A stretch of DNA of 47,140 bases from Bacteroidales bacterium (GTDB lineage: Bacteria; Bacteroidota; Bacteroidia; Bacteroidales; Marinilabiliaceae): the NCBI GenBank assembly GCA_022768325.1, contig JALEMI010000064.1:1-47140 (forward strand), given 5' to 3'. The translations under genes were made by a program, and so were the position numbers. Shown one piece after another: positions 12,801-46,416 of the stretch; within the stretch, counting starts at the first letter, position 1; the number at the start of each line of letters is the position of its first letter. Under the pieces are notes generated by a model. It was not told the DNA's origin. It worked only from the letters and a program-made list of their open reading frames with translations, and did not search any database.

Positions 12801-14065
12801 TGGGCGGCTACATAGTGGGCCATTGTCTCAACCATTCCGTGGTCGAGCGAGAAAGCCGCTTTGATGAGGTCCTCGCCATAACCTGTTGAGCATCCGCTCG
12901 TTATGCTGACCTCTATTTTCTCCTCCTTAGCTCGCTGAGTGAGTTTGCTCAGACCGTGCTTAACGGCATCGATGGGATTGCCGCCGTTGTGGGCGTAATA
13001 TTTGAAGATAATCTCACCATTCTCGTTGATTACCACAATCTTGGTGGTAGTCGAGCCTGAGTCAATGCCCAAGAAATTGCGCTTTGTGGCACGACTAACG
13101 TCGACAACGGGGACGTAGTTCTTGGCCTTCTCAACCTTCCACGCGAGGTAATCCTCCTCGGACGTAAAGATGGGCGGCAGCTCGATTGTCGTCTTATTAT
13201 GGTGAGTCTGATTCTCCGTGGTCTTCTTCTCGGGCGCAGGCGAAGTCAGAAGCACGTGGAGCGACTCCATTGTGAAGGGCTCGCTCTCGCACTCAGCCAA
13301 AGCCGTACCCCATGCGGGGATCACATTGGCGTGTTCCTCAATTATGAAGTCATTTTCGAGGGAATAGCCAAAATAGTCGGCCAAAGCCTTACGCAAAGAG
13401 GGGATGAACGTGAGGGGTCCGCCGCAGAGGAGGACCTTGGGCTTAATCTCGCAACCGTGGCTCAGAGTGCTGGCTGTCTGTACGACCACAGCGCGGAAAA
13501 TAGAAGCCGCAATATCCGTCTTGGGGACATTGCGAGCTATAAGGTTCTGAATATCAGTCTTAGAGAAGACGCCGCATCGCGAAGCAATCGGATAGAGAGT
13601 TGTGCTTCGCTGGGCAAGCCCATCGAGGTCGGTCACCTCGACGCCGAGGCAAAGCGCCATCTGGTCGATAAAAGCACCCGTACCGCCGGCGCAATTGCCG
13701 TTCATGCGGAGGTCGGTCACCTTACCATCCTTAATGTACACGATTTTAGCATCCTCGCCACCTATATCTATAATGGTTGACACATCTGGATGGACAGTCT
13801 TCGTGAACTCGGCGGCCGCTACGACCTCCTGCACGAAGTTGATGCCATACCTCTCCGCGACACCTAAGCCGACAGAGCCCGTGATGGAAAGAGTGAAATT
13901 ATCGGAAGGTTGGATTGTTGCGGCGAGCTCGGAAAGAAATGCCTCAATTGCCGCTGGCACGTTAGCTTGATGCCGTCTGTAAGAAGTATACTTTACAATG
14001 CCCTGCTCATCGAGGACGACTATTTTGGCTGTCGTCGAACCGACATCCAATCCTATTCTGTACAT
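9800..14065 (-). CDS. Giant 2-hydroxyacyl-CoA dehydratase activase-type protein (tandem BadF/BcrA ATPase domains plus DUF2229/HgdB-like region)
   Basis: Predicted 1421 residues with no signal peptide. Two ASKHA-fold ATPase domains are in tandem. The first, at about 1-260, has GLDVGSTTAK and DIGGEDAK. The second, at about 330-600, has GIDSGSTTTK, DIGGQDMK and the EACSSGCGSF cysteine segment used by activases to hold a 4Fe-4S cluster. Then comes a DUF2229-like region beginning near CHGCENQC and IGIPRVLNMYEE. The C-terminal part is dehydratase-subunit-like, with conserved cysteines in NNEVCYPA, GQCRATNYP and QPFGCIANH. Known activases use ATP to inject an electron into 2-hydroxyacyl-CoA dehydratases. 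The large fused form is widespread in anaerobes and its own substrate is unsettled. No fermentation genes flank it; the only linked gene is the overlapping methyltransferase. Confidence 0.9.
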   Translation of the reverse strand: MYRIGLDVGSTTAKIVVLDEQGIVKYTSYRRHQANVPAAIEAFLSELAATIQPSDNFTLSITGSVGLGVAERYGINFVQEVVAAAEFTKTVHPDVSTIIDIGGEDAKIVYIKDGKVTDLRMNGNCAGGTGAFIDQMALCLGVEVTDLDGLAQRSTTLYPIASRCGVFSKTDIQNLIARNVPKTDIAASIFRAVVVQTASTLSHGCEIKPKVLLCGGPLTFIPSLRKALADYFGYSLENDFIIEEHANVIPAWGTALAECESEPFTMESLHVLLTSPAPEKKTTENQTHHNKTTIELPPIFTSEEDYLAWKVEKAKNYVPVVDVSRATKRNFLGIDSGSTTTKIVVINENGEIIFKYYAHNGGNPIDAVKHGLSKLTQRAKEEKIEVSITSGCSTGYGEDLIKAAFSLDHGMVETMAHYVAAHAMCPDVSFILDIGGQDMKATYVDHGALTRMELNEACSSGCGSFIETFAQTLGCDISDFVVKACQSQKPSDLGTRCTVFMNSKVKQVLREGASVADIAAGLAYSVVKNCLFKVLKLKNYDELGQNIVLQGGTMRNDSIVKAFENLTGRTVYCNNVPELMGAYGCALHAQRLAHDSLSEGRPVDDFLVAASFDQKTLTCHGCENQCRITQYKFKNGGIYFSGNKCEKVFTNGKASDKAGVDMSVYKYHALFDRANEPEKTVPTPRFTIGIPRVLNMYEEFPFWHKFFTSCGIRVVLSNPSLFLDYEKSVHTVMSDNICFPAKLVHSHIYGLAAMDNVDRIFFPRVVYERREDKTVTGSYNCPIIIGYPEVVASVIKVSKPVDSPVVSFQDDKLLLKQMVKFMATLGVDEKTVKKAHAAALAEYEKFGRELRQANLDAYHEAQKARHSVILLAGRPYHTDPLIQHKVSEMISKLGVDVLTEDIVRGVSVDEKETFILKQWTFVNRILNSAQWTARQGNNVHFVETTSFGCGPDAFFTDEARSVLNRHNKSLTLLKIDDINNVGSMKLRVRSLIESLKFGGELSTDVKPFIRPRKFENEDKEKRTILAPFFTEYISPLLGAAFKTEGYDVVSLPISDAESNDLGLKYSNNEVCYPATLIVGDFIKALQSGKYDLDKTAVAVTQLGQCRATNYPSLIRKAIVDAGFHQVPVIGIAGTDKEDQPGFKLNLVKAAPIVLYSVFFGDWLSVFYHAIAVREKVKGTARALRDDFLRRANPLVEKKDLNGLLKLTRQAAEEFNAIDIYTDRTYPKAGIAGEIFLKFNPYSHRYVPDWLMDHGIEVIPPIIHNFFLRAFVNFKFNKENFVKKFKVPAVVIDIAYSLITKVQHKFDREAEVFKFYQPEIDIKTQSKLASDIICLSAQFGEGWLLPAEVIAYIKQGCTNVVSMQPFGCIANHIVVRGIEKKLKEAYPELNMLALDFDGGVSEANIANRLLLFAANMTTPPQK

Positions 14066-32725: not shown

Positions 32726-33949
32726 CTAATCCCAGAAGGGGCCGGTGACGCTCTCTACTTGCGCCTCGGTCTCGTCGGGAAGATTGCAGAAGAAATCGAG
32801 GCCTGTCTTAGACTCCAGCTCATCGACTGTGACGACATATTTCTTGATGTCCGCGACGGTGAAATCGGAAGAGCCGTCGAGCGGCGTGATTTGGTCATCG
32901 TGGGGGACATAGAACGCCACGGCGGAGTAGTCGCCACTTTTTACGGCGAGGATGGCCATGAAATAGAAGGCTGGGCAGGCGAGGCCCTTGATGGTCATGC
33001 CATTGGCGTCGGTTGTGGCATACTTACCGTCACTACCTGGGGTGGAGCTGGTGAAATTGGTAAGGAGATTATTGATGTCGCCGCCCTTGCAGACGAAAAT
33101 GGTATCGTATTTTGCGGACTGGGTTGCACTACCCCACTTTCGGACCTCGTCCTCCATGCGTCGCCAGATGCCGGCGTTGAAACCGTTGAGCATGGGGCTC
33201 ATGTTGCTGAAATAGAAGGTCTGCTCGTTCATCTCGGTGGAATAGAGGCGATCGCCAGATGCGCAGATGTGTCCGCGGTCGAGACCGTCGTTGGTGTGGT
33301 TGTAGTTTGTCACCTGCATCTCCGTTGGGAGTTCGGGGTCGGGCTTGAAAGCGTCGCTGCTGGCGCGGGTGACGTTCATTTGGCTGCTGTACTTATCGAG
33401 AGTATAGGCCACCCATGCGGAGTGCTTGAGGTCGTTGTTCCATTCGAGGGAGAAGTTGACATCTGTCACGCCGTTGAGCTTGGCGTAGTGGGTGACGAAA
33501 GTGTTCTCGGCGTTGAAACGTGGCATCTCGGTACGTAGGGAGACGGCGCCGAAGAGGGTCGCATCGTTGGCGTTGACATTAGCCTGCGGGACAGAGGGAT
33601 CTTGGGAGATTCGGAGAGTATCGGAGGCATCGCCACAGCGGATGGAGAGCGTCACAGAGCGGGAGGCGGTTGACGGATTTGCGAGGATTGTTGCGGCAAT
33701 GGTGGCATCGCCATTTCCGTAGGTCTTGTCGAGAGAGAGCCACGTGGGGACACCCGAAACTGTCCAGGATGCATTGGCGAACACGGTGAGAGTTGTCTCG
33801 CCGCCAGTGCATGGGAATTGGGTTTGAGCCGCCGCGATGGATACGGAGTCATTGTCGTCGTCGGAACAGGAAGTGAGAGCCACAGGAGCGAGCGACGCGA
33901 GAAGCGACAAGGAAGCGACGCCCAAGCTCTTAATGAGAGAAACGTTCAT
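32726..33949 (-). CDS. Secreted BACON-domain DNA/RNA non-specific endonuclease lipoprotein
   Basis: Predicted 407 residues from ATG 33949 (MNVSLIKSLGV); an upstream in-frame start lacks a proper signal sequence. The lipobox is ALTSC (Cys28). Residues about 44-117 form a BACON domain (GGETTLTVFANASW, WLSL, SRSVTLSIRCG, RISQD). Residues about 140-400 are a His-Me finger NUC nuclease with the catalytic DRGH motif at 224-227, followed by ASGDR and SNMSPMLNGFNAGIW, where the asparagine binds the metal. The enzyme cuts single- and double-stranded DNA and RNA without sequence preference, probably at the cell surface. It is 84 bases after the large lipoprotein gene, in line with the TonB receptor. 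Confidence 0.9.
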   Translation of the reverse strand: MNVSLIKSLGVASLSLLASLAPVALTSCSDDDNDSVSIAAAQTQFPCTGGETTLTVFANASWTVSGVPTWLSLDKTYGNGDATIAATILANPSTASRSVTLSIRCGDASDTLRISQDPSVPQANVNANDATLFGAVSLRTEMPRFNAENTFVTHYAKLNGVTDVNFSLEWNNDLKHSAWVAYTLDKYSSQMNVTRASSDAFKPDPELPTEMQVTNYNHTNDGLDRGHICASGDRLYSTEMNEQTFYFSNMSPMLNGFNAGIWRRMEDEVRKWGSATQSAKYDTIFVCKGGDINNLLTNFTSSTPGSDGKYATTDANGMTIKGLACPAFYFMAILAVKSGDYSAVAFYVPHDDQITPLDGSSDFTVADIKKYVVTVDELESKTGLDFFCNLPDETEAQVESVTGPFWD

Positions 33950-34033
33950 TGTTTGGACAATATGATCAAAATGAAAAAGGGGGAGACGGGACAATAGGCC
34001 CATTCTCCCCCAATTTATTATTTCAAATATGTG

Positions 34034-36433
34034 TTACTCAACCTCTTGGAGAGAATCAGCAACATATTCGAAGGAAGCCTTTCCGATACACTTGTACTTG
34101 ATAGTGTAGTTGACGTTGGAGTTGGTGCCATTGTTCTCCTTGCTGTAATAGGCAACGAAATTGATGGTGTAGATGAGGTCTACACCGTCGATTACGTTGG
34201 CATCGGGATAAAGAGTGCCGAGCACCTTGCCGTAGGTCTCGATGAGATTCTGCTGCATTTGGGCGAGGACCTCGTCGTCGGTCATATCGGCGAAAGCGCT
34301 TGATTGCTCCTTAGCCTTGGCAGCTCGCCAGTCGACATTGTTGTAGTAAGCGGAGCTGCCCGTGTAATACTCGTTGTTGGCATAGGTCGTGACGTAGCCT
34401 TCGCCCTTGTTTACCGCGCCATTGGGGACATCGATATTCTCCCAAACCCAGTCTGTTACAGCCTGATAGAAAGCCTTGGCGGTAGCATCGTTACGGTCGG
34501 AAGAGAGAGTGATGGTGACGGAAGGATCGTACATCCAAGAAGAAGCCTTGACGAACTGGCCTTTGGCGGTCACGTAGGTTGCCGTAGGAGCCCACTCGCC
34601 ATTTACGAACTCGTACTCAGCAGCCTCGATGTTGGAGCCGTAGTAGTAGACTACAGCCGCCTTGTCGGACTCGAGGGCATAGGGGAGCTTGGTGGCGAGG
34701 AACTTAGCGAGATAGGTTGCGGGCTTGTAGGTAGAGCTGAAGCTGTTGGTAGAGATGCCCATTGCCTTGTAGTCGGCGGGGTTGACAACGAGGACGTCGG
34801 AGGGGATGGACCATGTTGCGCCGTCGTAAGAGTAGATGGCGAATTTGGTCTCGGAATTGTCGATTGCCTTGAGGCTCTTGCTGCCATCGATTACGAAATC
34901 GGCGGTCTCGTCATACTCAGTTGTCACCAATACCTGCAGATAGTCCTCGACGCTGTTGCCGCTGAAATAGTTGGCAGCCCAATCGACAGTGATGTAGGGA
35001 GAGGTGAGCTCGGTAAGGTCGAGTTCCTTGGTAATGAACCAGCTATCGGACTCGTTGTTAACCTTGTTGACGAATGCGGAAGCCTTGGCACCATACTTTG
35101 AGTCGAGCGTCCAAACGTAGGTGGAGCCGGTTGGGAGAACGACATCCTTGATGACATAGCCCTCGGGGAGTTCGGTGGTGAGAAGCGTATTGTTCTCGAC
35201 GACACCGAGCTTAGAATTGGCGTAAGCGCCGTAGGAGCTGAACTTGGAATCGTAAGTGATGGTCTTGGAAACAGCGTAGTTGACGATTTCGACACCAGAC
35301 GCTGTGACATTGAAATTCCAGTCATAACCCTCGTCGCCGACGGCATCGGCTGTGTTGAAGCTATCGTAGGTACCCTTCATGTAGAGGTAGAGGCCGTCGG
35401 CGTTCTTGATGCTATAACCGTTGGCAGAGGCGGCTACCTCGACAAAGATAGACTCGGCATCGGCAGCAGCCACGACACCGTCGGTAACGGTTACGGGGTC
35501 GCTAACGCAATAGCCGTACTCCTTGCCGCCCTTAATCTTGCCGTAGGCGTAGTAAGAGCCGTCGACATTGGCGAGAATGAGATACTTGCCATCGCCGCTG
35601 AACTTGGTGGCCTTCTTGTAAGAACCGTCATCTTGGGCGGCGTAGAGTTCGGGCGTGACGTAGTTGGAGAGGGCGGCATCGGCAACCTTAAGGTTCTTAA
35701 CCTCGACAGTACCAGCCAAAGAGGAGGTGCTGAGATAACGGATACCGACACGAACAACTTGACCTGCGAAATCGGAGAGGTCAATCTTGCCGGAGGAGAC
35801 ATAGGTCCAATTGGTGCCCTCGGGATAGTTGGCACCGGAGAGCTTGGTCCAATGGCACTCGGGAGCATCGGAGACGGCGGATGGCTCGGTCTCGGAATAC
35901 TTGTAGGTTACGAGGACATAGTCGCCGGCCTGTGCATCTTCAACCGCAGCGGGGAGGACGGACGCGATGGCGGACTCGGTGGACTTGGTTACATAGCTGG
36001 CCTTAGAATTGCCCTTCCAGATTGTGACATAGTCGTCGGAAGTGAGCTCATAAGACTTGGCTGCGGCGAGAGTTGTGAGATACTCGGGAGCAGCGACGGC
36101 GAGCTTGTAGGTGATGTTTACGGCAGAACCCTTGTCGGCAGTCTGCCACTTGGAGGCGGCGAACTTGGCGATATACTTCTGCGCGATGGCATCGGAGGGG
36201 AACACCTTATTGCTCTTGACAGAGGCGAGATCAGCGACATCGGCCTCGTCGATTGGGGTGTATCCGCCGATGGTGGTATAGTCGGCATCTTGAAGTTCGT
36301 ATGTTACTCCAGATACGACATTCTGACGGCTCTCGTTGACAAGCTCGTCGAGCCCGTCAAAATTGTCATTGTAGTCTTCGCAAGCGGACAGAGCCACTGC
36401 CAAGGCTGCAAATAGAATATGTTGCGATTTCAT
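34034..36433 (-). CDS. Large surface lipoprotein with choice-of-anchor-J-like domains, partner of the TonB receptor
   Basis: Predicted 799 residues from ATG 36433; an ATG three codons upstream is also possible. The lipobox is ALSAC (Cys18). Two jelly-roll-like segments resemble choice-of-anchor-J/cleaved-adhesin domains: NWTYVSSGKIDLSDFAGQ...VRVGIRYLSTSS (about residues 210-250) and WFITKELDLTELTSPYITVDW (about 465-490). Between them lies a trefoil-like stretch (GYSIKNADGLYLYMKGTYDSF). The C-terminal ~200 residues include ATYVTAKGQF and DVPNGAVNKGEGYV, of unknown fold. It starts 18 bases after the TonB receptor stop, the position of a SusD-like surface partner, but it is not SusD. Probable role: capture of ligand at the surface for the receptor. 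Ligand inferred as nucleic acid from the neighbouring nuclease. Confidence 0.72.
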   Translation of the reverse strand: MKSQHILFAALAVALSACEDYNDNFDGLDELVNESRQNVVSGVTYELQDADYTTIGGYTPIDEADVADLASVKSNKVFPSDAIAQKYIAKFAASKWQTADKGSAVNITYKLAVAAPEYLTTLAAAKSYELTSDDYVTIWKGNSKASYVTKSTESAIASVLPAAVEDAQAGDYVLVTYKYSETEPSAVSDAPECHWTKLSGANYPEGTNWTYVSSGKIDLSDFAGQVVRVGIRYLSTSSLAGTVEVKNLKVADAALSNYVTPELYAAQDDGSYKKATKFSGDGKYLILANVDGSYYAYGKIKGGKEYGYCVSDPVTVTDGVVAAADAESIFVEVAASANGYSIKNADGLYLYMKGTYDSFNTADAVGDEGYDWNFNVTASGVEIVNYAVSKTITYDSKFSSYGAYANSKLGVVENNTLLTTELPEGYVIKDVVLPTGSTYVWTLDSKYGAKASAFVNKVNNESDSWFITKELDLTELTSPYITVDWAANYFSGNSVEDYLQVLVTTEYDETADFVIDGSKSLKAIDNSETKFAIYSYDGATWSIPSDVLVVNPADYKAMGISTNSFSSTYKPATYLAKFLATKLPYALESDKAAVVYYYGSNIEAAEYEFVNGEWAPTATYVTAKGQFVKASSWMYDPSVTITLSSDRNDATAKAFYQAVTDWVWENIDVPNGAVNKGEGYVTTYANNEYYTGSSAYYNNVDWRAAKAKEQSSAFADMTDDEVLAQMQQNLIETYGKVLGTLYPDANVIDGVDLIYTINFVAYYSKENNGTNSNVNYTIKYKCIGKASFEYVADSLQEVE

Positions 36434-36451
36434 TGTTGTCAATTTAATGGT

Positions 36452-39175
36452 TTAGAAAGAGACCTTCAGACCGAGGGAGTATGTTCTGCCGAAACCGTAG
36501 AAGACTTGGTAGGCGGACTCCCAATTGTGCTTGTCGCCGTCGGTGGCCTGCTGGATGTACTCCTGATCGAAGAGGTTGTTGACCTTGCCAGAGAGACGCG
36601 CGTTGAGCTTATCGCCGATTTTGAAAGCGTAGGAGGCATCAACATCGAAGGTGTAGCTGGACGGGATTCTCCAAGGGCTTGAGAAAACCTTTATACCGTT
36701 GAAAGTGATGTCGTTGGAGCTGAAATCCCAGTCGGCATAGTTGCGAGCGAAGAGGTTGTAGTCGGCACCAATCTTGAGGCCTTGCATAGGCTTGAACTTA
36801 ACGCCGAGAGCGGCGGTTGTTTGAGCAGAGCCACCGACCTTGACCTTGTCGAGTTCGAGCTTCATGTAGGCATGGTCGTCGGCCTTTGCGCCAGAGGCGA
36901 CGTTGCCCTTGGAATCCTTAAGAGGGTTGCCGGCGGAATCGTAGAAATAGCCGACAGGGGAGCAATCCCAAATCCAATCGCCGAAAGAGAACATACCCGT
37001 GATGTCGACCCACTTAGCGGGCTTGGCGGTGAACTCGACCTCGACACCCATGTGGCGAGCGTCAAGACCCTCCATGTTGAAGAACCAAGTATCTTGCTCA
37101 CCATTGGCCTTCGTGATGTCGCCACGCTTGCTCTGCGTCTTATTCATCCACTTTGTCAAGTAGGCATTGACCTTGGCGTCGAAGGGAGCGGACTGGAAGC
37201 CATAACCGAGTTCGAAAGAAGCGACCTTCTCGTTGACGGCATCGGGGTTGGTCTCGTTGCTAACAGTGCTGGAAAGGAAAGCACCACCCGAGAAGAAAGG
37301 AGCGCGGCTGATGAAACCGGCGTTGATGAAGACGTTGTTATTCTCGTTGATATTGTAGTTTGCGCCGCCCTTGACGGTGCCACCCCAGAAGTTTACCTTA
37401 TCGGACTCGGCGTGGGAATCGTCGTAATAGAAGCGGTCGTAACGCCAGTAGCAAGTATTTGAAACAGAGCCGGAGACGAAGAAATTGAACTGGTTGAGAG
37501 TGTACTCGGCTTGTGCGAAGATGCCCTCTTGGACAGTGTAGCCGTCGTAGTCACGATAGACGACATCGCCGACGTGGAGTTTCTCATAGACGAAATTGGG
37601 GTCGTTGGCCTTGGCGTTGTTGTAGGCCTTGACATTCTTACGGTAGTAGTTGTCGGTGAAGTACTCACCATTGTAGAGGTCGGTGATCTCGTTGGTGTGC
37701 TTGCCCCTGTACCAGCGGAAATCGACACCGCCTGTTACTGTGAGATCCTCGCTGATTCGGTTCTCGTAGTTGGAGACGAAGCCAATCCAGTTGTGGTAGT
37801 TCTTGGAGATACTCATGACCATGTCGGAACCGTGGTCGCTTGAGGCGTTCATCTCTTGAATCTCATCGTAGGCGAAAGTACCATCCTCATGGCGGAAAGT
37901 GGTATTGAGCGAGCCGTTGGAAGCGCCGTACCACTTATTCTTGTAGTCGGAAGAGGTACCCATACCGGAGTTGCCATATCCGCGGCCGATGGAGACATAG
38001 ACGACAGAGGAGAGGCTCTGGTTGTCGGTTATCTGCCACTGGTGGTTGAGGGAGATTTGTGGCTTGTGGTAGACGTTTCTGGCCGAGGCTTTGCGCTCGC
38101 CATTGAGACCGAAGCCGTAGGTTGGGTTGTAGCGGTACTCGCTCTGGCCCTTCATGTAGTCCTTGACCTTTTGCCAGCCAGCGATTGTGAGACCGTCGTA
38201 GGAGCTGCGCTGATTGTGCCACTGAGGAGCGCCGAAGGCCGTAAGAGTGAGCTGGTGGTCGGAATTGAGACGCTTGGCGATGCTTGCGAACCAGTTGTAG
38301 CCCTCGAACTCTGTGCCTTGGACGTAGCCGTCGCCCCAAGTCTTAGCGAGAAGGACGGTGAAAGCCCAGCCTTTGGAGTTCATGCCCGAGGAGACCGTTG
38401 CGAGCATCTTCTGATAGCCATCGTTACCGACGGAATAGGAGACAGCCCCACCCTTCTTGGACTCGATACCTTTGGTGACGACATTAATTGAACCACCGAC
38501 GGAGGGAGCGGAGAGCTTCGTAGCACCGAGACCGCGTTGGGTCTGCATACTGCGGGTGACATCGCTAAGACCCGTCCAGTTGGACCAATAGACGCCGCCC
38601 CACTCCATATCGTTCATGGGGACGCCGTTGACCATGACGGCGATGTTGGCAGACTTGAAGCCACGCATATTAATCTGCGAATCGCCATAGCCGCCGCCGG
38701 CCTTTGTTGCGTAGACACCAGGGGTAGCCTTGAGGACCTCGGGGAACTCCTGGTTGCCGAGCTTAGCCTCAATTATCTCTGGGGAGACAGACGAGAGCGC
38801 GACAGGCGTCTTACGCGCAACGGCGATAGAGCTCTTGACAATGACATCGTCGAGCGTCTTGGAATCGACAGCCATGTAGATGGCACCAAGATTTTGGGTC
38901 TCGGCATTGAACGAGAGCTTCTCGTAGCCGAGGAAAGTGATGTCGATGCTTTGAGGTAAGCTTGCGACCTTGATTGAGAAGTTACCGTCGAGGTCAGTGA
39001 CCGTACCGTTGGATGTTCCCGACAGAATGACAGCGGCACCGACGATGGGCTCTTTAGTAGCCTTGTCGAGCACTGTTCCATTCACCGTCTGCTGAGCGAA
39101 AGCGCAGACGGATGTCAACAGCAGAAGCAACACCCACGCGAAACGAGACGTGCCCCTTGAGTGAAATGTTTTCAT
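36452..39175 (-). CDS. TonB-dependent receptor with carboxypeptidase-like N-terminal domain
   Basis: Predicted 907 residues from ATG 39175 (MKTFHSRG), which gives a proper signal peptide ending CAFAQ. The longer in-frame start has no signal sequence at its N-terminus. Residues about 30-110 are a carboxypeptidase-regulatory-like domain (VNGTVLDKATKEPIVGAAVILSG, GTVTDLDGNFSI). The plug follows (FPEVLKATPGVYATKAGGGYGDSQINMRGF, IAVMVNGVPMNDMEWGGVYWSNW) and then a full barrel ending in YSLGLKVSF. Such receptors import ligands across the outer membrane using TonB energy. It is the first gene of the block with the surface lipoprotein and nuclease, and lies downstream of the PiT gene on the same strand. 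Confidence 0.93.
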   Translation of the reverse strand: MKTFHSRGTSRFAWVLLLLLTSVCAFAQQTVNGTVLDKATKEPIVGAAVILSGTSNGTVTDLDGNFSIKVASLPQSIDITFLGYEKLSFNAETQNLGAIYMAVDSKTLDDVIVKSSIAVARKTPVALSSVSPEIIEAKLGNQEFPEVLKATPGVYATKAGGGYGDSQINMRGFKSANIAVMVNGVPMNDMEWGGVYWSNWTGLSDVTRSMQTQRGLGATKLSAPSVGGSINVVTKGIESKKGGAVSYSVGNDGYQKMLATVSSGMNSKGWAFTVLLAKTWGDGYVQGTEFEGYNWFASIAKRLNSDHQLTLTAFGAPQWHNQRSSYDGLTIAGWQKVKDYMKGQSEYRYNPTYGFGLNGERKASARNVYHKPQISLNHQWQITDNQSLSSVVYVSIGRGYGNSGMGTSSDYKNKWYGASNGSLNTTFRHEDGTFAYDEIQEMNASSDHGSDMVMSISKNYHNWIGFVSNYENRISEDLTVTGGVDFRWYRGKHTNEITDLYNGEYFTDNYYRKNVKAYNNAKANDPNFVYEKLHVGDVVYRDYDGYTVQEGIFAQAEYTLNQFNFFVSGSVSNTCYWRYDRFYYDDSHAESDKVNFWGGTVKGGANYNINENNNVFINAGFISRAPFFSGGAFLSSTVSNETNPDAVNEKVASFELGYGFQSAPFDAKVNAYLTKWMNKTQSKRGDITKANGEQDTWFFNMEGLDARHMGVEVEFTAKPAKWVDITGMFSFGDWIWDCSPVGYFYDSAGNPLKDSKGNVASGAKADDHAYMKLELDKVKVGGSAQTTAALGVKFKPMQGLKIGADYNLFARNYADWDFSSNDITFNGIKVFSSPWRIPSSYTFDVDASYAFKIGDKLNARLSGKVNNLFDQEYIQQATDGDKHNWESAYQVFYGFGRTYSLGLKVSF

Positions 39176-39379
39176 AATAAGTTTTATTTCAGAGGAATGC
39201 GCAAATATAAACACTATCGGAACAAAGTGTGAAATATTCAGCCCAAAAACGGATTTAGAGAATCTCAAATTTTGTAAAGAAATCAAACATGGTATCCGTG
39301 CTTACGGGGGCCGAGATATTTCACACTATTGACAATTGCAAAAATGATTTGCGAAGTCTATTGTTGATTCATTATTTCG
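39176..39379 (-). promoter_or_regulatory. Promoter and operator-like repeats upstream of the TonB receptor
   Basis: The minus strand reads TATATTTG at 39202-39209, an exact -7 box 27 bases before the ATG. A perfect 12-base inverted repeat flanks the region: AGTGTGAAATAT at 39226-39237 and its reverse complement at 39316-39327, 78 bases apart. TGTAAAGAAATCAAACAT at 39273-39290 resembles a sequence upstream of the PhoB-like gene. Wide arms are compatible with a looping regulator. Confidence 0.5.
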
Positions 39380-41674
39380 TTAATATTCGCCATCTCGTGC
39401 GGTCTCTTTGTCCTCCTCGGACACAGTCTGCGGGGCATTGAAGCATTTTACGGACTGGATATGGTGGCGGAGGTTATTTACGAGGTTTTGAGTCTCCCTG
39501 AGGAGGTTGATGTAGACCATGAGCACCTTGAAATCCTTGGGATTGACACCGGACTGCAGGCGATTCATGTGGGCATGCCTAACGGCCTTTAGCACCTTGC
39601 GGAGCTCGATGGCCCTCAGTCGGAGCGTCTCGTAGTCTATGAAATCGAGGGAATTGACCATCCTTGCGGCATTCTCTAACAGCTCGTTGACGCTGCGTCG
39701 GATGGGCGCGAACTCCTTCTCGGCCTCCTTGGGCAGAGGGTTGAAGCCATTGTCAACGTGCTCGATTACAGGGGAATGCATCTGGCGGAGAATGCGGACG
39801 TATTGGGAGCGGCAATCTAAGCCGAGTTGGAGCCAGAGGCCGCTGTCGTTGAGCGTTGAATAGCCTTGCAGCTCGTCCTTATGCGCCAATTGACCAAACT
39901 CGAGCATTTCGAGACGACCGTTCCTATGATTAATGCGCATCTCGACATCGAGACGATTGCCTACCTGGCGAAGGACGCGCACACGACGACCGAGGAAAGC
40001 ATCGACAATGTCGTTGAACAAGATTTCCGACTGCCTGATGGCGAGAGAATCGTTGGACGCCGCACGGACATTGAAAGAGTCGGGCGTAGGCTTGGCGACC
40101 ACGGCGACAGGGCTCGTGGACCTCGCCGATGCTTTCTTCTTGCCGACGAAATTGCTCTTCACGACAACGAAGACGACGAGCAGCATGAAAGCGAACATGG
40201 CGACAATGCCTAAATAATACATCACCGCACATACAATGGCAGCCGTGAGGAAGGCAATGGCGGCAGTGAGGAACCATCCGCCGATGACGGTCAGCACACC
40301 CGTGACACGGAACACGGCCGTCTCGCGACCCCAAGCCTTATCAGCGAGGCTGGAACCCATGGCGACCATGAACGTCACGTAGGTCGTTGAAAGGGGGAGC
40401 TTATAGCTTGTGCCGAGTACAATGAGCACGGACGAGAGCACCAGATTGACAGCAGCGCGGACGGCATCGAAAGCGGCACCTTCGGGCATCTCCGTATTGC
40501 GATTGTCGAACCTTTGGCCTATGGCGACCTTGAGGCGGCGAGGCATGAGGCGTTCAACATTGGCAAAGAAAGCCTCGGTGTTGCGGACGATGCTGCGTGC
40601 GGGGCGGCTTGAGCCGAACATCTCGTCGGAGCTGTCTTGGCGGCTTAGGTCGACGCTTGTCTTTACGACAGTCATTGCCTTCTTGGAGAAGACAAGCGCG
40701 AGAATCATGATGACACCTGCCCCGAGGAGGTATGGGGTGGAGGATTTTGCGGACTCCATGAGCGACGTCATCATGAAAGAATCGGGGTCGGGACATCCCG
40801 CGTCGTACCAGTCCTGGTAGGATGACAAGCCGGCAAGGGGTACGCCGATGAAGTTGACCAAGTCGTTGCCGGCGAAAGCCATAGCGAGGGCGAACGTTCC
40901 GAGGAGAATGACAATCTTGAACACATTGACCTTCAAAGCCAATAGCAAAAGCGAGATGATTGTTGAGAAGGCAAAGAAACTGAGTAAGATGAGCCTGACA
41001 TTTGCGGCGACCCACTCGCGAGCCTCATGGCTAATCATGGGCGACTTGCCCAAGCCTTTTACGAAAATGAAGTAGCAGAGAATGGTGAAAGCCAAGCCGC
41101 CAAAAATGGCTACGGGGACGAAACCGACCTTGCTGCTTTGGAACGTGAAGACGAGCCTCGCGAGCCACTGAACAATGACACCACAAACGAAAGCGATGCC
41201 GACGCTGACGAAAATGGCAACGATTACGGACAAGCACTTATCGGTATTGATAAGGTCGGAATAGACAAAAGTATCGGACTGCGCAATCTTAACGGCCGCC
41301 AAGAAAGAAGCCGCACCGAAAAGCTCAAAGACAAGCGAGACGGTGGTGGACGTGGGCAGACCTAAGGAATTGAAACGGTCGAGAACGATGACATCCGTGG
41401 CCATGACAGCGAGGAAAACCACGATGACATCGGCAAACGAGAAATTGGAAGGGAGCATGATGCCATGGCGGGCGACATCCATCATGCCAGACGACATGAA
41501 AGCACCGACCACGACACCGACCGAAGCCATGATGAGCAGAGTGCGCCAATGAGCAATGCGAGCGCCTACTCCCGAATTGAGAAAGTTTACCGCATCGTTG
41601 CTGACGCCGACAAAGAGGTCGAAGACGGCCAGCAAGAGCAGGAAACCGATGATGATAATGTAGATTGTAGCCAT
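39380..41674 (-). CDS. PiT-family inorganic phosphate transporter with long C-terminal helical domain
   Basis: Predicted 764 residues. Both PiT signatures are present: GVSNDAVNFLNS at residues 23-34 and FAGNDLVNFIGVP near 275. Also present are the GLPTSTT and KLPLSTTY halves and about 10-12 membrane segments over residues 1-520. The last ~220 residues (from about 545) are soluble, helical and charged (FLGRRVRVLRQVGNRL, RSVNELLENAARMVN, AHMNRLQSG), resembling PhoU/DUF47-type regulatory helices. PiT proteins take up metal-phosphate with protons or sodium. It lies between a divergent PhoB/PhoR-like pair and a TonB/nuclease block, all suggesting phosphate nutrition. The control region is shared with the regulator gene. 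Confidence 0.92.
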   Translation of the reverse strand: MATIYIIIIGFLLLLAVFDLFVGVSNDAVNFLNSGVGARIAHWRTLLIMASVGVVVGAFMSSGMMDVARHGIMLPSNFSFADVIVVFLAVMATDVIVLDRFNSLGLPTSTTVSLVFELFGAASFLAAVKIAQSDTFVYSDLINTDKCLSVIVAIFVSVGIAFVCGVIVQWLARLVFTFQSSKVGFVPVAIFGGLAFTILCYFIFVKGLGKSPMISHEAREWVAANVRLILLSFFAFSTIISLLLLALKVNVFKIVILLGTFALAMAFAGNDLVNFIGVPLAGLSSYQDWYDAGCPDPDSFMMTSLMESAKSSTPYLLGAGVIMILALVFSKKAMTVVKTSVDLSRQDSSDEMFGSSRPARSIVRNTEAFFANVERLMPRRLKVAIGQRFDNRNTEMPEGAAFDAVRAAVNLVLSSVLIVLGTSYKLPLSTTYVTFMVAMGSSLADKAWGRETAVFRVTGVLTVIGGWFLTAAIAFLTAAIVCAVMYYLGIVAMFAFMLLVVFVVVKSNFVGKKKASARSTSPVAVVAKPTPDSFNVRAASNDSLAIRQSEILFNDIVDAFLGRRVRVLRQVGNRLDVEMRINHRNGRLEMLEFGQLAHKDELQGYSTLNDSGLWLQLGLDCRSQYVRILRQMHSPVIEHVDNGFNPLPKEAEKEFAPIRRSVNELLENAARMVNSLDFIDYETLRLRAIELRKVLKAVRHAHMNRLQSGVNPKDFKVLMVYINLLRETQNLVNNLRHHIQSVKCFNAPQTVSEEDKETARDGEY

Positions 41675-41865
41675 AAAGAGTTGTGTAACAATTTTACAGC
41701 CGCAATATTATCGGCACGTAATTACACAGCGACTAAGCGCATATTACAAAGCTGTAACAAAAGCCCCAACGCATTGTCTCGCAATATTGTAACACAATCG
41801 AAACACCTGATAACGCCAAAAACAGCCATATTTGCGAATCGGGAAAACACTAAAGGCAAAAAGAC
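41675..41865. promoter_or_regulatory. Divergent PiT/PhoB control region with repeated TGTAACA
   Basis: TGTAACA occurs three times on the plus strand (about 41692, 41754 and 41788). The last is TGTAACACAATCGAAACAC, whose two halves match with an 11-base period, as in Pho-box-like direct repeats. On the other strand TTGTTACAGCT is followed by TTGTAATA at the same period. CATATTTG at 41827-41834 is a near -7 box for the regulator gene, without a -33 box. This supports activator-dependent control. That the activator is the PhoB-like protein is inference. Confidence 0.45.
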
Positions 41866-42573
41866 ATGACAGAAGGAAAATCAAGAATATTAGTCGTAGA
41901 CGACGAGCAAGACATTTGCGACATCTTGAGCTTCAACATAAAGACGGCAGGATATGACGTCATGACCGTAAACTCGGGCGAAGAGGCAATTGAAAAAATC
42001 AGGAGGGCCACGGACAAGCCCTTTGACCTAATCCTCCTCGACGTCATGATGGGCGGAATGTCGGGCTTCGAGATGGCGCAAATCTTGAAGAGCGACCCGG
42101 CGACAGCGGACATCGCCATCATATTCCTCACGGCCAAGGGCACTCAAAACGACACGATAACCGGCCTCAACATTGGGGCCGACGACTACATCTCGAAGCC
42201 CTTCTCGCTTCAGGAAGTCATGCTGCGCATAAGAGCCGTATTGCGACGGACTAAGAGCGACGCGACATCGTCCAGCAAAACAAACACATTGACATACAAG
42301 ACCTTGTCGATTGACCAGGACAGGAAGACGGTCTGCATTGACGGCGAAGAGATTGCCGTGACGAAGACTGAATATGAGATATTGCGGCTATTCCTGATGC
42401 AAAAGGGGCGAGTCTTGTCGCGTCAGGACCTAATAGAAAAGGCATGGCCGGACGACGTGATGGTGTCGGACCGCACGGTGGACGTGAACATCACGCGAAT
42501 CCGCAAAAAGGTTGGACGATATGCCGACAACATCGTCACAAGACTTGGATTTGGCTACATATTTGAGGAATAG
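41866..42573 (+). CDS. OmpR/PhoB-family response regulator
   Basis: Predicted 235 residues. The receiver domain, residues 1-120, has the acidic pair VDDEQD, phospho-acceptor Asp59 (LLDVMM), Thr/Ala at FLTAKG and Lys111 in SKPF. The winged-helix DNA-binding domain, about 140-235, has LSIDQDRKTV, LTKTEYEIL-like TKTEYEILRLF, RQDLIEKAWP, VDVNITRIRKKVG and TRLGFGYIFEE. It forms a two-gene operon with the kinase (stop 42573, kinase ATG 42578). The kinase sensor resembles PhoR and the divergent gene is a phosphate transporter, so a PhoB role is likely. Sequence alone does not settle the signal. Confidence 0.9.
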   Translation: MTEGKSRILVVDDEQDICDILSFNIKTAGYDVMTVNSGEEAIEKIRRATDKPFDLILLDVMMGGMSGFEMAQILKSDPATADIAIIFLTAKGTQNDTITGLNIGADDYISKPFSLQEVMLRIRAVLRRTKSDATSSSKTNTLTYKTLSIDQDRKTVCIDGEEIAVTKTEYEILRLFLMQKGRVLSRQDLIEKAWPDDVMVSDRTVDVNITRIRKKVGRYADNIVTRLGFGYIFEE

Positions 42574-42577
42574 GGAC

Positions 42578-43993
42578 ATGACGATACCAAAACTACACGT
42601 TGGGCAGAGGCTTTTCCTCTGCGTTCTGAGCATCTTCGTAATCTTTGCCGCCTCGCTGATCCTCTTTCAGCAGAGCCGTGAACGGCAGTATAAACGCGAC
42701 GCGCTGAACTCGCAGCTTCAAGAGTATAACTATCGCATTTTTAGCGAGATGGAGCGCAAGGGCATGGACTTTGCGTCGGCAAACAACACCCTCGAAACAT
42801 TCCCTAACGACAACCTTCGCCTGACAATAATTGGCGAAAACGGAAACGTACTCTTAGACAGCGAGCATGGTGAGATTGCGACCATGACGAATCATAGCGA
42901 CCGAATTGAGATACGCGAGGCGAAAAAGAACGGCGCAGGCAGCGACTACGACAGGAACAGCACCACGACGGGAAGGAAATATTTCTACTCGGCAACGTAT
43001 TTCCCCACAGCCAAAGTGTTTGTGCGCACCGCCCTACCCTACGACGACGAATTGGCAGACAACCTCAAGGCCGACCAGCACTACATTTGGGTAGCCCTCT
43101 TCCTCTTAGGGCTGCTCTCATTAATATTGTGGCAATTTCTTGTCCGCCTGGGTAACAATATTGAGAACCTGCAGAAATTTGCCATTAAGGTGGACCGGAA
43201 TGAGAGCCTTACGGAGAGAGACATAGAATCCTTTCACAAAGACGAGCTTGGCGACATTGCCAAACGGATTGTAAGGCTTTACAAAAGACTGACCGAAACG
43301 CAGGAGCAGCAGACGAGGCTGAAAAAAGAGCTTACGCAAAACGTGGCGCACGAGCTAAAGACCCCCGTAGCGAGCATACACGGCTACATGGAGACCCTCC
43401 TAACGAACCCGGACATCCCGCAAGAGACAAGGCTTCAATTCATGGAGCGATGCTTTGTGCAGACCAAGAGGCTGAGCTCCCTGATTCAGGACATATCGAC
43501 ACTGAACAAACTTGACGACAAGGAGAGCGAGACATTGAGCGACGAGCCAGTGGACATATCGGCCGTTATTGCCACCATCATGAACGACACGGCACTCCAA
43601 CGGAGCGAGCGCAAGATGGAGTTTTGCAACAAACTGCCCCAAGGGGTCGTTGTGCGTGGCGAATATTCCCTTATTTACAGCATATTCCGCAACCTTACGG
43701 ACAACGCCATAGCATACGCTGGCGACAGCACGACGATTACCCTCCAGGGGCATGAGACGCGCACATCGTGGTTCTTTGAGTTCTCGGACAACGGCGTGGG
43801 AGTGCCCGAAAAGTGCCTGCCACGGCTATTTGAACGATTCTATCGCGTAGACAAGGGCAGAAGCAGATCCATGGGTGGGACGGGTCTTGGCTTGGCAATT
43901 GTAAAGAACGCCATACTGCGGCATGGCGGGACGATAAGCGCCATGAATCGCAGAGGTGGCGGATTGATATTCTTATTCTCGCTGAAAAAGTAG
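42578..43993 (+). CDS. PhoR-like membrane sensor histidine kinase
   Basis: Predicted 471 residues from ATG 42578, four bases after the regulator stop. An earlier in-frame ATG would overlap the regulator gene and lacks support. Transmembrane helix 1 is at about 11-30 and helix 2 at about 169-189. The extracytoplasmic sensor between them contains LRLTIIGENGNVLLDSE and TNHSDRIEI, the pattern of PhoR/WalK-type sensors. A HAMP linker follows. The H-box is NVAHELKTP with His258. The N-box is NLTDNAIAY, and G-boxes are FSDNGVGVP, FERFYRVDKGRS and GTGLGLAIVK. It would phosphorylate the adjacent PhoB-like regulator. The kinase call is firm, and the phosphate signal is inferred. Confidence 0.9.
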   Translation: MTIPKLHVGQRLFLCVLSIFVIFAASLILFQQSRERQYKRDALNSQLQEYNYRIFSEMERKGMDFASANNTLETFPNDNLRLTIIGENGNVLLDSEHGEIATMTNHSDRIEIREAKKNGAGSDYDRNSTTTGRKYFYSATYFPTAKVFVRTALPYDDELADNLKADQHYIWVALFLLGLLSLILWQFLVRLGNNIENLQKFAIKVDRNESLTERDIESFHKDELGDIAKRIVRLYKRLTETQEQQTRLKKELTQNVAHELKTPVASIHGYMETLLTNPDIPQETRLQFMERCFVQTKRLSSLIQDISTLNKLDDKESETLSDEPVDISAVIATIMNDTALQRSERKMEFCNKLPQGVVVRGEYSLIYSIFRNLTDNAIAYAGDSTTITLQGHETRTSWFFEFSDNGVGVPEKCLPRLFERFYRVDKGRSRSMGGTGLGLAIVKNAILRHGGTISAMNRRGGGLIFLFSLKK

Positions 43994-44012: not shown

Positions 44013-44060
44013 AAAAAAAGGCATCCGCCTAACTTGAAGATTTGACGGATGCCTTTTTTT
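44013..44060. terminator. Bidirectional terminator between the kinase gene and rplS
   Basis: A perfect 15-pair stem: AAAAAAAGGCATCCG (44013-44027) with CGGATGCCTTTTTTT (44046-44060). It has T tracts on both strands. A third copy of GGCATCCG overlaps the kinase stop (43993-44000) and could compete for pairing. Confidence 0.9.
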
Positions 44061-44547: not shown

Positions 44548-46416
44548 CTACTTGAAATATTTGTTGAGTTCGTTCATGGCATCGTTAAACTCTTTGGCTG
44601 GAAGTTTGTAACCGTTAACGGGGTTTAGATTGGCGTCGTAGACATCGAGTGCGCCGTCGGCGGTCTTTTCGAGGATTGAATCGCCCTCGATAATGAAGGC
44701 GTAATTAAGATTTGAGCCGACGACGTGCCAACGTCTTGGCACAGAATCTGTTAGGACATGGCCTGCTGAGTAGTCGGAGATGTCGTTGCGGACACCAAGA
44801 TAGCGGCTCATGAGAGTTGCGGCGATGTCGTAGTGGGTTGTGCGGTGGGTGAACTTGTGGGGCTGCTGCATATCGGGGAAATGGCAAATTAGCGGCACAC
44901 CAATCTGATGGAGGGAGAAATTGCCATTATGGCCCCAATAGTTCTTGTGATTCTCGTTGAACTCTTGGCTATGGTCGCCAGTTAGGACGACTATCGTGCT
45001 ATCCATGAGGCCTTTACGTTCGAGAGCGTCGAACACTCGGCTCATGATTTCGTCATCTTGATTACACGTATTGCGATACAGATTCCAGAAGGGCTCGGGA
45101 TCGAGGTCATTATTGAGCTTTGTGTAGTCGGCGTATTCCCATGCGGGTTGGAACTTAACATTCTTATCCTTAGGGAGTTGGAAACTGTGAGGGAGGTCGA
45201 AGAACAAGAACGAGAAGAATGGGGCGGACGTGTCGGTCCTTGCCTCAAGATCGGCTAAGAAATTGTCGGCCAAGCGGTTGTCTCGCTCAATGACTGACTC
45301 ACCCTCGGTTTTGATATTGAGGTTGGGGACATTGGAGAACAGCACCCTTGCAAAAGGAGGGTCTGTCAATGGGGCACTTGGGTAAACCTGGAAATCGTAG
45401 CCAAGCTCAAGAAGCCTGTCGACGAGGGGTGGCGTGATATGGGATGCCTCGAAAGCCTCCCAATAATAGCACGGGAGGCCGTAGAAAACGCCAAAGACAC
45501 CACTCTGCGTACCGTTGCTGCCGCTTACGTGATTGGCGAACCATTGATTCTTCTGAGCGAAGTCGTAGGCCGTCGGCATACACTCGGGCGTGAAGGCTCG
45601 GCGATTCCACGAGTCGATGAGAATGAAGATGATATTGGGCAGCTTCTCGGGACGGACATTGTCAAAAGGTCGCAGAGGGTATTGAATATCAGAGCTTTGG
45701 GTATGAGCGGACGCCAATTTGCGATAATCGTCTGGAGCAACGAAGCCATGTCGGACCATGAAGCCGTAGGCCGTCATTGGGAAATAGTAGGGAATTAGCT
45801 TTGCGCTCTTGACGACAGACTGGTGCTGCATATAGGACGCGTAAACATGCCATCCGTGAGCAAAAAGCGTACATGCCACGAAAACCGACACAACAGGAAC
45901 GGCAAAAGCCTTGCGGAACTTCCGCCACACGAAGGACGAAACCCACCAAAGACCCGTCACCACCGCAGACAACAGCACAAACATGACGCCCTCCTTGACG
46001 TAGAGCATCGTATCGAAAGTGAAAATCTCGGCCGCACTATCGCCAAAGAACATATTGAGAATGAAGCCATTAATATGGAAGCGGTACAGCGCAAAGACCT
46101 GCTCGTTGACGTAGCACAAAATGCACAATGCGACGACCAGCACGATGTGGACGACAGTGGCGACACGCGGAAGACGCACGGCCGCAAAAATCAGGTATAC
46201 AAGAAACGGAATCAGCGCCACTTGCGACGCATGACTAATGGTTGACGCTATGAAGAAACACCACCCCTCAAAATCCATAAGTTCGGCAATGGAATTACCG
46301 AACATATAGCTAACGAATTGAAAAGCAATGACAAAAGCGGAAATAGCGTAGAACAAGAAACCACGCTTTAAGGAGTCGCGAAAAGATTCGTCCTTAATTG
46401 AACAAGATTTAGTCAC
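44548..46416 (-). CDS. YejM/PbgA-like inner-membrane protein with sulfatase-fold domain (DUF3413-like)
   Basis: Predicted 622 residues. Five hydrophobic helices lie in about residues 15-190, followed by a periplasmic alkaline-phosphatase/sulfatase-fold domain from about 255 (NIIFILIDSWNRRAF). The stretch SGSNGTQSGVFGVFYGLPCYYWEA corresponds to the nucleophile loop; VVLTGDHSQEF and HNGNFSLHQIGVPLI are the metal-site loops. The layout and loop match YejM/PbgA, which in enterobacteria senses lipopolysaccharide and tunes its synthesis, rather than true sulfatases. Candidate nucleophile Thr/Ser is present, so phosphotransfer to lipid or glycan is also possible. A near -7 box (TATCTTTC, 46440-46447) is upstream. 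No LPS genes flank it. Confidence 0.8.
   Translation of the reverse strand: MTKSCSIKDESFRDSLKRGFLFYAISAFVIAFQFVSYMFGNSIAELMDFEGWCFFIASTISHASQVALIPFLVYLIFAAVRLPRVATVVHIVLVVALCILCYVNEQVFALYRFHINGFILNMFFGDSAAEIFTFDTMLYVKEGVMFVLLSAVVTGLWWVSSFVWRKFRKAFAVPVVSVFVACTLFAHGWHVYASYMQHQSVVKSAKLIPYYFPMTAYGFMVRHGFVAPDDYRKLASAHTQSSDIQYPLRPFDNVRPEKLPNIIFILIDSWNRRAFTPECMPTAYDFAQKNQWFANHVSGSNGTQSGVFGVFYGLPCYYWEAFEASHITPPLVDRLLELGYDFQVYPSAPLTDPPFARVLFSNVPNLNIKTEGESVIERDNRLADNFLADLEARTDTSAPFFSFLFFDLPHSFQLPKDKNVKFQPAWEYADYTKLNNDLDPEPFWNLYRNTCNQDDEIMSRVFDALERKGLMDSTIVVLTGDHSQEFNENHKNYWGHNGNFSLHQIGVPLICHFPDMQQPHKFTHRTTHYDIAATLMSRYLGVRNDISDYSAGHVLTDSVPRRWHVVGSNLNYAFIIEGDSILEKTADGALDVYDANLNPVNGYKLPAKEFNDAMNELNKYFK

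Follow-up and report, generated by a model that had tools for sequence, protein, structure and literature searches.

The contig JALEMI010000064.1 of a gut-type Bacteroidales bacterium (Marinilabiliaceae, assembly GCA_022768325.1) was analyzed over its full length of 47,140 nt, and this whole stretch is hereafter called the window; the genome to which it belongs measures 2.72 Mb and is 92 percent complete. Between htpG and rplS, the window carries a block of six genes, encoding a PhoB response regulator, a PhoR sensor kinase, a PiT phosphate permease, a TonB-dependent receptor, a large lipoprotein and a nuclease. The initial annotation of this DNA had read the block as a single phosphate-responsive locus for the scavenging of nucleic acids. 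All six open reading frames (ORFs) were present where that annotation had placed them, and profile searches bore out their family assignments. The features are as follows.

32726..33949, minus strand: nuclease, predicted lipoprotein, with BACON (PF13004, 6e-10) and DNA/RNA non-specific endonuclease (PF01223, 9.5e-40) domains
33979..34011, minus strand: terminator-like hairpin followed by a T-run, in the lipoprotein/nuclease gap (stem of -21.7 kcal/mol, then TTTTT)
34034..36433, minus strand: large lipoprotein of non-SusD type that pairs with the TonB receptor (no family by profile; assigned by pairing)
36452..39175, minus strand: TonB-dependent receptor with plug and CarbopepD_reg domains (by profiles; below the SusC/RagA cut-off)
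39202..39209, minus strand: -7-like element TATATTTG, a putative promoter that precedes the receptor gene and has no Pho box ahead of it
39226..39327, strand not assigned: perfect inverted repeat with 12-nt arms (AGTGTGAAATAT / ATATTTCACACT), between the PiT and receptor genes
39380..41674, minus strand: PiT phosphate permease, 764 aa (PF01384)
41703..41759: Pho half-sites between PiT and phoB, predicted by weight matrix (score 17.5)
41866..42573, plus strand: PhoB response regulator (NF053854)
42578..43993, plus strand: PhoR sensor kinase (NF053855; the ORF opens at 42512)
44019..44054: terminator-like inverted repeat between A and T runs in the phoR/rplS gap, read from the sequence

The likelier start positions, as read from the sequence, are 39175 for the receptor (not 39286), 36433 for the lipoprotein and 42578 for PhoR; the nuclease likely starts at 33949, its ORF extending to 34003. 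The plus-strand phoB-phoR genes and the minus-strand PiT gene diverge from a common 191-nt region, and beyond PiT the order on the minus strand is receptor, lipoprotein, nuclease. The block is composed of two modules lying side by side, PhoB-PhoR/PiT and receptor/lipoprotein/nuclease. It does not look like one operon, because phoB-phoR and PiT diverge, the receptor gene is preceded by a -7-like element (the Bacteroidota -7 promoter consensus being TAnnTTTG) and a hairpin stands before the nuclease.

The phosphate module was recognized by profile. PhoB and PhoR exceeded the cut-offs of the NCBIfam equivalogs for Bacteroidota (NF053854, 326 bits with a cut-off of 270, and NF053855, 552 bits with a cut-off of 500), and PiT matched PF01384 (PHO4) at 2.1e-21, with 76.8 bits against a gathering score of 33.7. 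In the window's genome, no PstB match exceeded the cut-off (best 150 vs 343 bits). A weight matrix for putative Pho boxes was trained purely on promoter sequences, 13 of them, taken from related PhoB/pst loci that do not belong to the genus; its consensus consists of tandem TGTAAC repeats 11 nt apart, followed by TANNTTTG in most of the 13. The region between PiT and phoB scored 17.5, a value reached by none of 3000 dinucleotide shuffles, and its half-sites form a tandem TGTTAC/TGTAAT, with a further TGTAAT 16 nt ahead of the -7-like element TAATATTG. In a composite model combining half-sites and -7 element, the window PiT stood among the best-scoring 4 percent of the 559 upstream regions. A predicted Pho box is clearly present, then, at the promoter region that PhoB shares with phosphate uptake.

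Of the 71 genomes of the family, 24 contain a PhoB that exceeds the cut-off. When the PhoB loci from 20 of the 23 other PhoB-bearing genomes were compared, PiT adjoined or lay near PhoBR in seven (genomes G055, G058, G060, G062, G067, G013 and G016); order-wide, PhoB or PhoR stood beside PiT in 8 of the 29 PiT loci given, with flanks of about 1.5 kb. This neighborhood in relatives supports the view of PiT and PhoBR as a phosphate module. The window PiT sits on a very long branch (1.97) in the PiT tree, outside both PiT groups of its own genus, the PhoBR-linked one and the second; a search of 393 genomes of the order gave 52 percent identity for its closest full-length match.

As for the second module, receptor and lipoprotein are a near-constant and widespread pair across related bacteria. 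The receptor contains a TonB plug (1.7e-13) and a CarbopepD_reg_2 domain according to Pfam. Like SusCD-type complexes, it is a barrel receptor encoded as a pair with a surface lipoprotein; unlike them, it reaches only 94.6 bits against the SusC/RagA profile TIGR04056, whose cut-off is 368, and its partner is not SusD by any profile. Indeed, searches of Pfam, NCBIfam and the PDB sequences gave no match for the lipoprotein, so that its earlier description as non-SusD holds at the profile level. In this lipoprotein family, the N- and C-terminal parts are conserved and the middle is variable. A match to it occurred in 35 of the 71 family genomes, the window's own counted; of the 34 other genomes, 28 supplied same-family loci and six had short domain matches alone. 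The receptor adjoined the lipoprotein in 28 of the 28 same-family loci with room for it, while a 29th locus (L063) is a second contig of genome G056 and begins inside the lipoprotein gene. A search with the receptor alignment gave 576 confirmed places, the best 80 of which were taken as named loci, and in 75 of these 80 (our own count) lipoprotein and receptor were neighbors; of the five exceptions, two are cut short where a contig ends. Named hosts include Bacteroides graminisolvens, gallinarum, cellulosilyticus, rodentium, clarus and salyersiae, as well as Odoribacter, Porphyromonas, Lutibacter and Flammeovirga.

The genes that recur beside this pair point to nucleic acids. The window nuclease resembles solved nucleases of the PF01223 family and EndoG, and carries both the DRGH motif, which has a catalytic role (read from the sequence, with RGH aligned to that family), and a lipobox-like stretch, TSC-SDDDN, likewise read from the sequence. 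Endonuclease_NS enzymes cleave phosphodiester bonds. A BACON/Endonuclease_NS gene was found directly beside the pair in seven named loci (one of which, L182, is that of genome G063) and, within the family, also in G056, G059 and G061; Endonuclease I occupied such a place in G016, G017 and L247, and an S1/P1 nuclease in seven loci. OB-fold proteins and DUF5020 also occurred directly beside the pair, and, of 45 family lipoproteins, 8 themselves matched an OB-fold nucleic-acid domain at E values from 2.3e-5 up to 0.01, the window's own not among them. Because unrelated nucleases and OB-fold proteins recur beside the pair in different lineages, the proposed role in nucleic acid uptake gains support, and the pair may be regarded as a putative importer of nucleic-acid fragments.

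Overall, 20 of 23 nuclease genes fell at the two positions adjoining the pair, vs 180 of 897 gene positions (p 5e-12). These 23 genes, however, were found with home-made profiles whose source clusters had drawn attention by lying beside the pair, and the p-values ignore shared ancestry; both facts tell against the nucleic-acid reading, as do the double counting of at least three same-genus loci across both sets (L040/L181, L049/L182, L053/L180), the lack of any OB-fold, DUF5017 or other Pfam match in the window's own lipoprotein, and the lack of a nuclease next door in about three quarters of the named pairs. Since the nuclease profiles derived from clusters near the pair, the test was repeated with all of Pfam. 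At the position after the lipoprotein (63 genes) we counted 7 Endonuclease_NS, 7 OB-fold and 3 Exo_endo_phos matches, and at the position before the receptor (66 genes) 7 S1-P1 nucleases, the top entry there, ABC_tran with 10, being an EttA-like neighbor. Three positions away on either side (103 genes), no nuclease family appeared among the 25 listed of 211 Pfam families.

As the initial annotation had remarked, there is no phosphatase among the six genes. An alkaline phosphatase adjoins the lipoprotein in genome G025, as does one in G022 that is assigned by its cluster alone; PF00245 alkaline phosphatase was not found in the window's assembly, and a 5'-nucleotidase domain was present at two other loci of the window's genome. 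On another contig of that genome (C11; L065:7899-10797), one protein has a lipoprotein-like stretch and a similar one occurs in the Endonuclease I encoded next, and a tandem GTAGTAACA/TAGTAACA repeat lies upstream.

The idea that the six genes form a unit was not supported by comparison. Neither PiT nor PhoB stood beside the pair in any of the 29 same-family or 80 named loci: the former, several of which are on short contigs, contained no match to PiT, PhoB or PhoR, and the latter no match to PhoB or PiT from 4 genes before the receptor to 5 after it, with weak kinase matches (57-80 bits) in three of the 80. No receptor or lipoprotein match was found in the 20 PhoB loci, and in none of the 29 order-wide PiT loci, within the flanks of about 1.5 kb, did the receptor lie beside PiT. 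In the same-genus genomes G055, G058, G060 and G067 both modules are present, on different contigs; the near relative G056 is outside the adjacency comparison, its contig starting less than 200 nt before the receptor. Judged by adjacency, the receptor, lipoprotein and nuclease thus occur in relatives apart from phosphate genes, an outcome that the initial annotation had itself named as speaking against its proposal. A conserved six-gene locus is ruled out, as the adjacency was seen in no relative examined, and the placement of the receptor machinery next to phosphate genes is probably peculiar to the window's species or its close kin.

Within the second module of the window, receptor and lipoprotein look like one transcription unit, given the distribution of hairpins. 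Where a nuclease gene is present, a terminator-like hairpin came after the stop codon of the lipoprotein gene in 10 of 11 loci (window included), and it did so in 45 of 57 other loci; the same class of hairpin was found in none of the 6 loci with an OB-fold partner and in 1 of 78 receptor-lipoprotein junctions. The corresponding gap in the window folds with a z of -3.0. Lying beyond this hairpin, the nuclease gene needs read-through or a promoter of its own, and a simple operon from receptor to nuclease is ruled out. Transcription might reach the receptor from upstream, since read-through from a Pho-controlled PiT is possible across the 204-nt gap between the two same-strand genes, which holds just a weak hairpin (-10.4 kcal/mol). 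The 12-nt perfect inverted repeat in this gap, with 78 nt between its arms, is located just upstream of the -7-like element; as a conserved operator it is ruled out, the second arm not being retained in the close relative G056.

Some relatives of the window's receptor gene do have Pho-box-like promoters. The composite model, whose training contained no receptor promoter, fitted the receptor promoter well in the same-genus genomes G065 and G066 and weakly in G060 and G063, other family loci fitting poorly. Among 772 upstream regions of the 80 named loci, 8 of the 11 best scores belonged to this receptor and 2 to a second receptor family. Scanning 13 Bacteroides-type genomes yielded 27 sites, vs 4 for a reversed-pattern control: 12 preceded this operon (one via a second receptor at the operon head), 4 the second receptor elsewhere, 5 a saccharopine dehydrogenase, 1 a Porin_O_P gene and 5 other genes. 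As these genomes had mostly been picked for high-scoring receptor promoters, a count of 12 of 13 genomes is not independent, and just the specificity counts, that is, the few other sites and the control. The half-site spacing of 27/38 nt, chosen after seeing the ranking of the 772 regions, was found in 15 of 51 cases vs 4 of 1245, two of those four being this same operon. In 8 of 9 pst loci from the scanned genomes, the same repeats occurred in the region before the presumed pstS and pstC (PstB alone was identified by profile).

Across the genus and family, single sites were less telling. Allowing up to 2 mismatches, the pattern gave 62 real vs 71 reversed-control matches in the genus (our own count), no better than the control; with up to 1 mismatch, there were 60 vs 38 in the family and 9 vs 6 in the genus, these nine including four before PiT, one in the PhoBR stretch of G062 and two before this receptor. 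Owing to the weak excess over the control, single genome-wide sites were not used alone.

Taken with the pst promoters, these repeats suggest that in Bacteroides-type relatives the second module is probably part of the Pho regulon, via a predicted Pho-box-like promoter of its own. The phosphate control of the receptor proposed in the initial annotation is thereby made plausible for those relatives; for the window it has less support: there, 1509 of 3000 shuffles scored as well as the region before the receptor, which ruled out a Pho box, the composite model placed the receptor at 26 percent of the 559 upstream regions, and the genome-wide scan of the window's genome returned no site. Besides this failure in the window, the case for Pho control is weakened by G065 and G066, which have fitting receptor promoters yet no PhoB over the NCBIfam cut-off, and by the scarcity of the promoter repeat outside Bacteroides-type genomes, where it is mostly absent. 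It is weakened, too, by several other genera of the family (L054-L062) in which a TetR-cluster gene often precedes the receptor and, in several of them, an operator-like palindrome resembling ACCGACC..GGTCGGT stands before it; gene and palindrome suggest that another regulator may act in those genera.

Two further groups of genes share this promoter type. In five Bacteroides-type genomes (L293, L294, L301, L304, L310), the same kind of Pho-box-like promoter precedes genes of the second TonB-type receptor family (PF25183, CarboxypepD_reg), which adjoins the present pair in five named loci (L196, L213, L218, L246, L257). A conserved promoter fitting the same pattern also precedes a saccharopine-dehydrogenase-like gene in five genomes (L297, L305, L316, L317, L318).

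The gene families, the pairing, the nuclease association and the Pho-box-like repeats computed above are, on balance, best accounted for by a phosphate module and a separate nucleic-acid import module that lie side by side. From them we infer the substrate, the direction of transport, the binding of PhoB and any read-through, as follows. PhoR would sense low phosphate and PhoB would bind the box between phoB and PiT, raising expression of its own operon and of PiT, which would take the place held by Pst in some relatives. At the cell surface, the nuclease would cut DNA or RNA, the lipoprotein would hold the fragments and the receptor would move them into the periplasm, where 5'-nucleotidases encoded elsewhere could free phosphate and nucleosides. 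In the window, the import module would be driven either by a phosphate-independent promoter of its own or by read-through from the Pho-controlled PiT.

The alternatives overlap with parts of this explanation, so that the likelihoods we attach to them need not add up to certainty. The one that survives best, to which we would give somewhat short of an even chance, is that the modules are neighbors by accident, the second serving salvage or the supply of carbon or nitrogen through the import of nucleosides or nucleic acids, while its location would have no regulatory meaning. The absence of a Pho box before the receptor both in the window and in G056 agrees with this, as do the lack of conserved adjacency and the presence of the pair in same-genus genomes without a PhoB over the cut-off; that this operon has Pho-box-like promoters in G065/G066 and in Bacteroides-type genomes does not. 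It is rather doubtful that the six genes form one phosphate-controlled scavenging locus, with receptor, lipoprotein and nuclease induced through PhoB by read-through from PiT. The short same-strand gap with its weak hairpin, the Pho box at the PiT promoter and the Pho-box-like sites before the receptor in relatives would fit such a locus, but the window receptor has a -7-like element without a Pho box, the nuclease is behind a terminator-like hairpin and no relative examined shares the arrangement.

A different question is whether the tandem TGTA-repeat of the Bacteroides-type genomes might be the site of another OmpR-type regulator instead of PhoB, which we deem unlikely to a similar degree. 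The first half-site is often TGTAGC instead of TGTAAC, at 38/27 nt from the -7 element, a similar site exists in G065/G066, where no PhoB exceeded the cut-off, and no PstB match was obtained in 4 of the 13 scanned genomes, in which PhoB itself was not searched; against this, the same 11-nt tandem repeat recurs in these genomes at the promoter regions of pst, and one further site precedes a match to the phosphate-selective porin O/P. Less probable still is an import of other cargo (peptides, metal complexes, glycans) with nucleases as occasional neighbors, for although most named loci lack an adjoining nuclease, the window lipoprotein lacks a recognized binding domain, and DUF5017 occurs in 16 of 45 family lipoproteins and a lectin-like domain in a single member, several unrelated nuclease families recur exactly by the pair and OB-folds occur in or after the lipoprotein.

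To our knowledge, the uptake of environmental DNA and RNA by gut Bacteroidota, and its use for phosphate, are poorly mapped. Starting from the preferred explanation of two adjoining modules, one may tentatively picture a Bacteroidota-wide, unnamed nucleic-acid importer made up of a TonB receptor and a non-SusD lipoprotein, in which the middle of the lipoprotein would swap binding domains, the OB-fold being one of them, and the nuclease would be swapped by lineage, and which would belong to the Pho regulon in gut Bacteroides and use nucleic acids as a phosphate source in the window's species; we hold this wider picture slightly more apt to fail than to stand. The pair is widespread, its lipoprotein is unannotated, and it makes the question of uptake directly testable in cultured Bacteroides.

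A locus of this general kind is already published, so that the initial description of a coupling to phosphate genes as not described was too strong. In Flavobacterium johnsoniae, according to the part of the study consulted, PUSIV comprises phoBR with a low-phosphate-induced TonB transporter and surface lipoprotein (PMC8115612). The same part of that source lists the extracellular nucleases EndA1/EndA2 as low-phosphate-induced orphans and names PitA in a figure legend. Like PUSI-IV, the system described here joins a TonB transporter and a surface lipoprotein with a link, here putative, to phosphate starvation; it differs in that PUSI/II have SusD-type partners and FI/FII are polygalacturonase-like (PMC8115612, same part), whereas the window lipoprotein has no known family and the window receptor no Pho box. 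As we understand that portion of the paper, a PUS includes a co-localized phosphatase or phosphodiesterase, and in the window Endonuclease_NS follows the pair. Another mark of a PUS is an outer-membrane receptor that phosphate depletion induces; on this point the window receptor showed no Pho box, and its counterparts in Bacteroides-type relatives showed Pho-box-like repeats.

In Bacteroides fragilis, PhoBR controls Pst, phosphatases and a phosphate/sulphate permease, and PhoB binds the pstC promoter (PMC3547664, as far as consulted); the representative table of that paper includes no receptor/lipoprotein/nuclease operon, and no Pho-box consensus was found there, the word "consensus" being absent from its main text. 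For marine-sediment Bacteroidota that degrade DNA, extracellular nucleases and nucleotidases have been proposed to serve DNA feeding, and Lutibacter incorporated labeled DNA carbon (PMC8289736, in the text consulted). Two Lutibacter metagenome-assembled genomes carry the present pair (L215, L218), whereas "TonB" and "SusD" are absent from the main text of the sediment study. Our literature searches found no report of a widespread non-SusD pair with exchangeable nucleases and Pho-box-like promoters, and it is this part that is new to us.

Elsewhere in the window, positions 44548-46416 encode a protein with DUF3413 and sulfatase domains, related to YejM/PbgA but far under the cut-off of that family, and positions 9800-14065 a 1421-aa protein with DUF2229 and a BadF/BcrA-type ATPase domain, which is probably a CoA-enzyme activator fusion.

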